This document shows positions 32,633 through 32,947 of a stretch of DNA of 33,889 nt, one piece after another. Made by a program: the position numbers and the translations under genes. Positions within the stretch are counted from its first letter, which is position 1. Every line of letters begins with the position of its first letter. Source of the stretch: an uncultured Clostridia bacterium. Lineage in GTDB: Bacteria; Bacillota; Clostridia; TANB77; CAG-508. The notes beneath the pieces were generated by a model. That model was not told where the DNA came from. It saw only the letters and a program-made list of their open reading frames with translations, and searched no databases. The DNA is taken from the NCBI GenBank assembly GCA_944386745.1, contig CALXCG010000014.1, positions 1 through 33,889 on the forward strand. Reading direction: 5' to 3'.

Positions 32633-32947
32633 GGGCAGGTGGCCGAGTGGCTAAAGGCGGCAGACTGTGGTCTTTGGTTTAAAAACAAAACCTAAACTTG
32701 CAGCTCATATAAGTGATTATATGATGAACATCGGGCTAATTCGGGGAAACCTTAACAGGAAAGCTGATGGCAATCCCGAGCTAGGAAAGAAATTTCCGAG
32801 TGTAGAGACTTTATACCTGATATCTTCATTAGAAGATAAAGAGAAAGTCCAGACTACAAACATAATTAATTATGGTAGTGAAAACTATAGTAGTAAGAAA
32901 TCTGTTCTCATTCGAGTACGAAGGTTCGAATCCTTCCCTGCCCACCA
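32633..32947 (+). tRNA. tRNA-Tyr (anticodon GTA) interrupted by a group I intron
   Basis: The 5' exon is 32633-32668 and the 3' exon 32898-32947, giving an 86-nt mature class II tRNA with encoded CCA. Acceptor GGGCAGG/CCTGCCC, T arm GAAGG-TTCGAAT-CCTTC, and anticodon stem GCAGA/TCTGT with loop CTGTAAA match bacterial tRNA-Tyr, including the long variable arm (TCTCATTCGAGTAC). The anticodon is split: G34 and U35 are at 32667-32668 and A36 at 32898. The tRNA cannot work, and Tyr codons UAU/UAC cannot be read by it, until the intron is removed and the exons joined. A terminator follows directly after CCA. An apparent 120-aa open frame across this region is not a gene. Confidence 0.93.
32669..32897 (+). 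ncRNA. Group I intron in tRNA-Tyr (229 nt, no ORF)
   Basis: The 5' splice site follows U35, and the last intron base is G (32897), as group I introns require. P1: exon CTGT (32665-32668) pairs with the guide GCAG (32700-32703), placing a U-G wobble at the splice site. P2: TCATATA/TATATGA (32705-32724). P3: ATCGGG (32730) with CCTGAT (32816). P4: TTCGGG (32740) with CCCGAG (32775). P6: GGAAA/TTTCC (32784-32797). P7: GACT (32807) with AGTC (32846). P8: ATCTTC/GAAGAT (32822-32837). P9: ACTAC/GTAGT (32853-32879). The Q-like AATCCCGAGC and R-like GTAGAGACT core elements are present. The small size suggests a compact tRNA-type (IC3-like) intron. It encodes no homing endonuclease. Confidence 0.92.

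Follow-up and report, generated by a model that had tools for sequence, protein, structure and literature searches.

A predicted small group I intron splits the anticodon of tRNA-Tyr(GUA) in an uncultured gut Clostridia bacterium and belongs to a family present in several tRNAs of its order and in phage tRNA clusters

A bacterial tRNA-Arg is among the known hosts of group I introns. A review table of bacterial tRNA introns is confined to cyanobacteria and alpha- and beta-proteobacteria (PMC4033280), and reviews name tRNA-Leu, tRNA-fMet and tRNA-Ile as the interrupted genes. The T-loop of tmRNA is another known site of group I introns (PMC11915505), crAss-like and other gut phages carry them in protein genes (PMC7886860), and tRNAs of unspecified type with group I introns have been reported from CPR genomes, so that under-annotation of tRNA introns is already known (PMC8172020). 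We found no report, in the openly accessible literature, of group I introns in tRNA-Tyr, tRNA-Asn or tRNA-Thr of bacteria.

Here we examined an interrupted tRNA-Tyr gene in a contig of an uncultured Clostridia bacterium; the whole stretch of 33,889 nucleotides analysed is referred to as the window. Our reading, to which we give a probability of about 94%, is that a small IC3-like group I intron interrupts tRNA-Tyr(GUA) between U35 and A36 and would be excised by guanosine-initiated splicing that restores the GUA anticodon. The observations behind it are the exact boundaries, a conserved and covarying fold, a guide that fits its exon across all the types of host tRNA, and the lack of an uninterrupted tRNA-Tyr among the bearers examined. 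The locus comprises the following features.

32536-32612, forward strand: intact tRNA-Met(CAU), 20 bases upstream of the tRNA-Tyr 5' exon
32633-32668, forward strand: tRNA-Tyr 5' exon, ending in CUGU (tRNA positions 32-35, with anticodon bases G34 and U35)
32669-32897, forward strand: group I intron of 229 nt, omega-G at 32897
32898-32947, forward strand: tRNA-Tyr 3' exon, from A36 onwards, with a long variable arm and an encoded CCA

The insert divides the anticodon between positions 35 and 36, leaving GU on one side and A on the other. When the exons were joined in silico, ARAGORN called an 86-nt class II tRNA-Tyr(gta) with every stem closed, in agreement with the first-pass annotation, which had recognised a class II tRNA-Tyr in the two exons. 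It had also predicted that standard tRNA finders would miss the gene or that a false ORF would be reported; both occur, since the unjoined gene drew neither an ARAGORN call nor a match to the Rfam tRNA model and is overlapped by a spurious ORF of 120 aa (32667-33029). The splice boundaries were fixed independently by relatives, many of 55 having query bases 1-36 and 266-315 contiguous and the insert absent (for example G033:C6:19523-19572 and 19573-19608, where the two exons abut). Other families of the order retain the tandem of tRNA-Met and tRNA-Tyr at this locus, and the outer flanks differ. A survey of relatives for the same insertion, as had been proposed, yielded intron-free alleles together with 52 interrupted tRNA-Tyr loci that were read. 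Recurrence of the same structure at these 52 loci, in many independent assemblies, refutes an assembly chimera, a reading that the draft metagenome assembly and the apparently frameshifted trpS, recD-like gene and dprA of the window might suggest and to which we give practically no weight.

Two further features of the window deserve mention. The genes trpS (15237-16254), a recD-like gene (18172-20221) and dprA (31456-32431) each look split by a frameshift, through indel errors or as broken genes, and positions 743-6202 and 6411-9836 hold predicted surface proteins of very large size, in which leucine-rich repeats and nearly identical tandem repeats occur.

The fold of the intron was examined in two alignments, A1 with 13 tRNA-Tyr introns (760 cells) and A2 with 20 introns from four tRNA types. 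All the predicted elements lie on the forward strand.

32665-32668 (exon CUGU) with 32700-32703 (guide GCAG), forward strand: P1, with a splice-site U.G pair; the helix is unchanged in all 13 introns of A1, and UUGCAGC is also invariant
32673-32679 with 32689-32696, forward strand: extra hairpin within the P1 loop
32705-32724, forward strand: P2 hairpin, with two-sided changes in 6 of 8 pairs (A1) and 8 of 8 (A2)
32730-32735 with 32816-32821, forward strand: P3, with two-sided pair changes
32741-32745 with 32775-32779, forward strand: P4
32750-32751 with 32769-32770, forward strand: P5
32780-32782 with 32799-32801, forward strand: P6
32784-32787 with 32794-32797, forward strand: P6a
32807-32812 with 32844-32849, forward strand: P7, pseudoknotted with P3, the expected guanosine-binding helix, almost invariant in sequence
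32822-32825 with 32834-32837, forward strand: P8
32854-32857 with 32890-32893, forward strand: P9, with hairpins at 32861-32874 and 32876-32887 (GAAA loop)

Across P1 to P9, 99.3% of cells were paired in A1, and 20 of 59 pairs had changed on both sides; the corresponding values for A2 were 98.7% and 21 of 36. Sliding the partners by one to three columns as a control lowered pairing to 27-47% (31-44% for A1), and the pairing in the intron alignments is not due to chance. In the core helices, the P3/P7 pseudoknot included, 97-100% of cells were paired. Changes on both sides of a pair were seen in P2, P3, P4, P5, P6, P8 and P9, and P7 was invariant or nearly so; P1 and P7 do not vary inside the tRNA-Tyr set and hence give no covariation signal there. 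The U36.G68 pair at the 5' splice site is present in 13 of 13 introns of A1, and the terminal intron base is G32897. All of the elements named in the first-pass annotation (P1 with a U-G splice pair, P2, P3, P4, P6, P7, P8, P9 and a terminal G) are therefore present. The predicted fold has a short P5 and lacks both P5abc and P7.1, and the intron appears most like class IC3. No ORF is confined to the 229-nt intron, and it encodes no homing endonuclease; as a small group I ribozyme it is unremarkable.

The covariance search that had been suggested gave a mixed outcome. Rfam model RF00028 matched window positions 32671-32876 end to end (model positions 1-253, E 4.3e-9, 381 bases searched), at a score of 40.5 bits that falls below the curated gathering score of 50 bits, which is a search threshold and not a structural feature. 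A default Rfam scan does not therefore report this intron. The cut-off is passed by tRNA-fMet introns and one tRNA-Leu intron of the same order, and the zero matches returned by an RF00028 scan of the genomes are uninformative because that scan missed the window's own intron. The full-length match, the covarying fold and the intron-free alleles agree in identifying the insert, as originally claimed, as a group I intron that splits the tRNA-Tyr(GUA) anticodon. An archaeal-type tRNA intron removed by proteins would also be expected in the anticodon loop, where the insert sits; the complete ribozyme fold, the U before the intron and the G at its end make this a negligible prospect, and no splicing endonuclease of this kind is known from bacteria.

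We infer the splicing chemistry, splicing in the cell and any protein aid as follows. In the transcript, the guide GCAG would pair with the exon CUGU, placing U.G at the splice site; a guanosine bound in P7 would cut 3' of U35; and the freed U35 would attack 3' of the terminal G, so that GU is ligated to A and the GUA anticodon is restored. Self-splicing is a property of the small IC3 introns found in Azoarcus and cyanobacteria, and the core is highly conserved here, which makes it unlikely that the same intron splices poorly alone and needs a protein partner in the cell, whether a chaperone or a synthetase (cf. Neurospora CYT-18, a TyrRS). Such a partner is suggested by the AT-rich and compact nature of the intron and by the existence of protein-assisted group I introns (PMC3984707).

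Whether the interrupted gene is the only tRNA-Tyr of its genome, a point raised in the first-pass annotation, is answered in part. The tRNA-Tyr 5' half was found once in the window assembly and the interrupted gene is the only complete copy, and a second trace, a 27-nt tRNA-Tyr 3' end at a contig edge (G000:C66:1-27), may mark a second locus. Searches of this assembly did not detect tRNAs for Ala, Val, Asp, Asn, Phe or Ile(GAU) either, so that absence of a second tRNA-Tyr there is weak evidence. Stronger evidence came from an order-wide search with the joined tRNA, which covered 47 of the 52 genomes with an interrupted tRNA-Tyr. The matches listed, down to E ~1e-24, gave 147 genomes whose tRNA-Tyr is uninterrupted or nearly complete, and none of the 47 is one of them; a more divergent uninterrupted copy could be missed at this limit. 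This absence argues for splicing in the cell. The bearers very probably cannot live without splicing, and the interrupted gene probably supplies all the tRNA-Tyr of the window genome.

Orphan tRNA-Tyr 3' ends of 27-31 nt occur at G000:C66:1-27 (L059), L061, L062 and L063, some without an upstream tRNA. These sequences suggest that mobile elements of the genus integrate at the 3' end of tRNA-Tyr. The window 3' of position 32947 resembles C66, with 90.6% identity over 180 bases.

The C66 fragment and this resemblance could be taken to mean that the window gene is a dead copy whose intron no longer splices, another tRNA-Tyr serving the cell. We consider this very improbable, as the exons close a full cloverleaf according to ARAGORN, covariation places the core pairs under selection, none of 47 bearers is among the genomes listed with an uninterrupted tRNA-Tyr, and the orphan 3' ends in relatives, which also occur without a tRNA, look like integration sites. 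A functional intron is thus the preferred reading, under which an essential tRNA of the bearers appears to depend on a ribozyme.

The first-pass annotation covered a single gene; the loci read here indicate that the family extends widely through the order, in tRNAs for Tyr, Asn, Thr and Lys as well as in phage tRNA clusters. A covariance model built from the family (R1), with the window intron among its seed sequences, scored that intron at 174.5 bits (E 2.8e-39) and found no other intron in the window genome. Of the 287 genomes searched across the order, 99 gave matches to R1. We read 127 introns with their flanks, using a classifier that required a U before the intron and a G at its end; both bases were also present in introns read by hand. 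Hosts were tRNA-Tyr(GUA) at 35/36 (52 introns), tRNA-Thr(UGU) at 36/37 (42), tRNA-Asn(GUU) at 35/36 (24) and tRNA-Lys(CUU) at 35/36 (one). Two introns lay in tRNA-Leu(UAA) at 34/35, where the classical introns of cyanobacteria are inserted, and two in tRNA-fMet (L164, L165 / L168, L169 for the Leu and fMet introns), two in tRNA-Ser-like genes (L166 and L167, from G080, with 8% contamination) with a PD-(D/E)XK (PF11645) ORF in the P1 loop, and two elsewhere. Loci L170 and L171 are more distant group I introns, seemingly in protein genes and not in tRNAs. During assignment, tRNA-Asp was considered as the second host and rejected because the 3' exon shows tRNA-Asn(GUU), and automatic labels of Val, Ala and Leu-TAG at four loci were reassigned to Asn by hand.

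Exon and guide vary together among these hosts. The exons of tRNA-Tyr and tRNA-Asn end in the same four bases, so that one guide serves both (CUGU with GCAGC). The guide is altered to fit the exon in the Thr introns (UUGU with GCACC, three pairs including U.G) and in the Lys intron (CUCU with GGAGC).

Phylogenetic analysis placed the 52 Tyr introns in one group (support 100/98). Thr introns formed one group in this tree (87/90) and needed two changes in a second tree to which phage rows were added; Asn introns formed one group, which was weakly supported in the first tree and reached 99/99 in the second. Among the sampled bacteria, the intron probably entered each tRNA site a single time or on few occasions; it would then have been passed on by descent, lost in places and at times exchanged between families. 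The intron of G044, a member of another family, is 92% identical to that of the window and nested among introns of family f1 (98/96), and ObgE of G044 has 64% identity in the same comparison; introns of family f5 are likewise nested in f1. These patterns favour some horizontal exchange of the Tyr intron between families. Presence and absence of the Tyr intron required 11 changes on an ObgE tree for which genomes of both states were deliberately chosen, and which therefore shows patchiness among species and gives no rate.

The Tyr-intron core pattern matched 95 stretches in a named genome collection, all of the titles shown being uncultured Clostridia-type bacteria; the sources of the family include gut samples from rabbit, goat, sheep, deer and chicken, among others. 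Outside the order (391 class genomes, a draw that re-sampled some genomes of the order itself, and 299 phylum genomes), R1 gave distant matches (L280-L308), nearly all in the tmRNA T-loop, and one (L299) that splits tRNA-Arg(UCU); R1 is tuned to this family and may miss other tRNA introns.

Searches for the Tyr intron gave no match in plasmids and core similarity only in isolate phages. In viral contigs, the core pattern was present in 12, and in five IMG/VR phage contigs (two of them of 117 and 232 kb) tRNA-Tyr is interrupted at the identical position by an intron with an identical guide. IMG/VR records 3300033463_000040 and 3300028797_000096 are among the phages examined. The joined exons of two of these phage genes were called tRNA-Tyr(gta) by ARAGORN, and two phage Tyr introns placed in the tree were sister to the 52 bacterial ones (97/94). 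Phage Tyr introns sit in tRNA clusters, which number as many as 17 or more tRNAs and frequently hold two or more introns. When viral contigs were scanned with patterns for Thr and Asn introns, most matches were due to chance, and of these matches only L356 and L361 are real tRNA-Asn introns. Phage tRNA-Asn introns encode PD-(D/E)XK proteins (PF11645, E 6.5e-33) that match PDB 2ost, which we take to be I-Ssp6803I, and phage tRNA-Thr introns encode HNH endonuclease proteins. A GIY-YIG endonuclease-like gene (L339:1737-2420, reverse strand) adjoins a split phage tRNA-Tyr and is reminiscent of the Seg endonucleases near T4 tRNA genes.

Phage tRNA clusters, in which some introns encode homing endonucleases, are plausible carriers of the intron family. 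A more specific scenario, which we offer tentatively as possible rather than probable, is that these clusters are both reservoir and carrier: the intron would have entered essential Tyr, Asn, Thr and Lys tRNAs of one gut Clostridia order repeatedly, its guide changing to suit each new loop, with endonuclease-bearing phage copies homing and bacterial copies persisting without an endonuclease.

Genomes of this order can seem to lack tRNA-Tyr, tRNA-Asn or tRNA-Thr(UGU) that are in fact present, which affects completeness estimates, codon-usage work and inference of the genetic code. The family also provides a natural series, in which one ribozyme occurs with different guides and targets, intron-free sister alleles and phage versions, so that the movement of tRNA introns between genes and genomes becomes a testable question.

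The closest relatives in form are the IC3 introns of bacterial tRNAs, in tRNA-Leu(UAA) of Anabaena and other cyanobacteria, tRNA-Ile(CAU) of Azoarcus and tRNA-Arg(CCU) of Agrobacterium, which are likewise small ORF-free ribozymes in the anticodon loop with a short P5 without P5abc, a U.G splice pair and a terminal G. The core around P4-P6 and P7 is very similar to theirs. The introns described here differ in their hosts, Tyr(GUA), Asn(GUU) and Lys(CUU) at 35/36 and Thr(UGU) at 36/37, and in their lineage of gut Clostridia. Cyanobacterial tRNA-fMet introns with I-Ssp6803I share a tRNA target and, with the phage tRNA-Asn introns, probably an endonuclease of the PF11645 PD-(D/E)XK type, but involve a different tRNA and site, and the bacterial Tyr introns have no ORF. 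Introns of the tmRNA T-loop (PMC11915505) are also small and mostly ORF-free, with a related core found by R1, but occupy another gene and loop and score 37-66 bits with R1, versus 124-182 for most tRNA introns in the order. As in crAss-like gut phages, the phages here are intron-rich, but their introns split tRNA genes. What appears to be new, relative to the openly accessible literature, is the set of host tRNAs, the lineage and the site shared between phage and bacterium.
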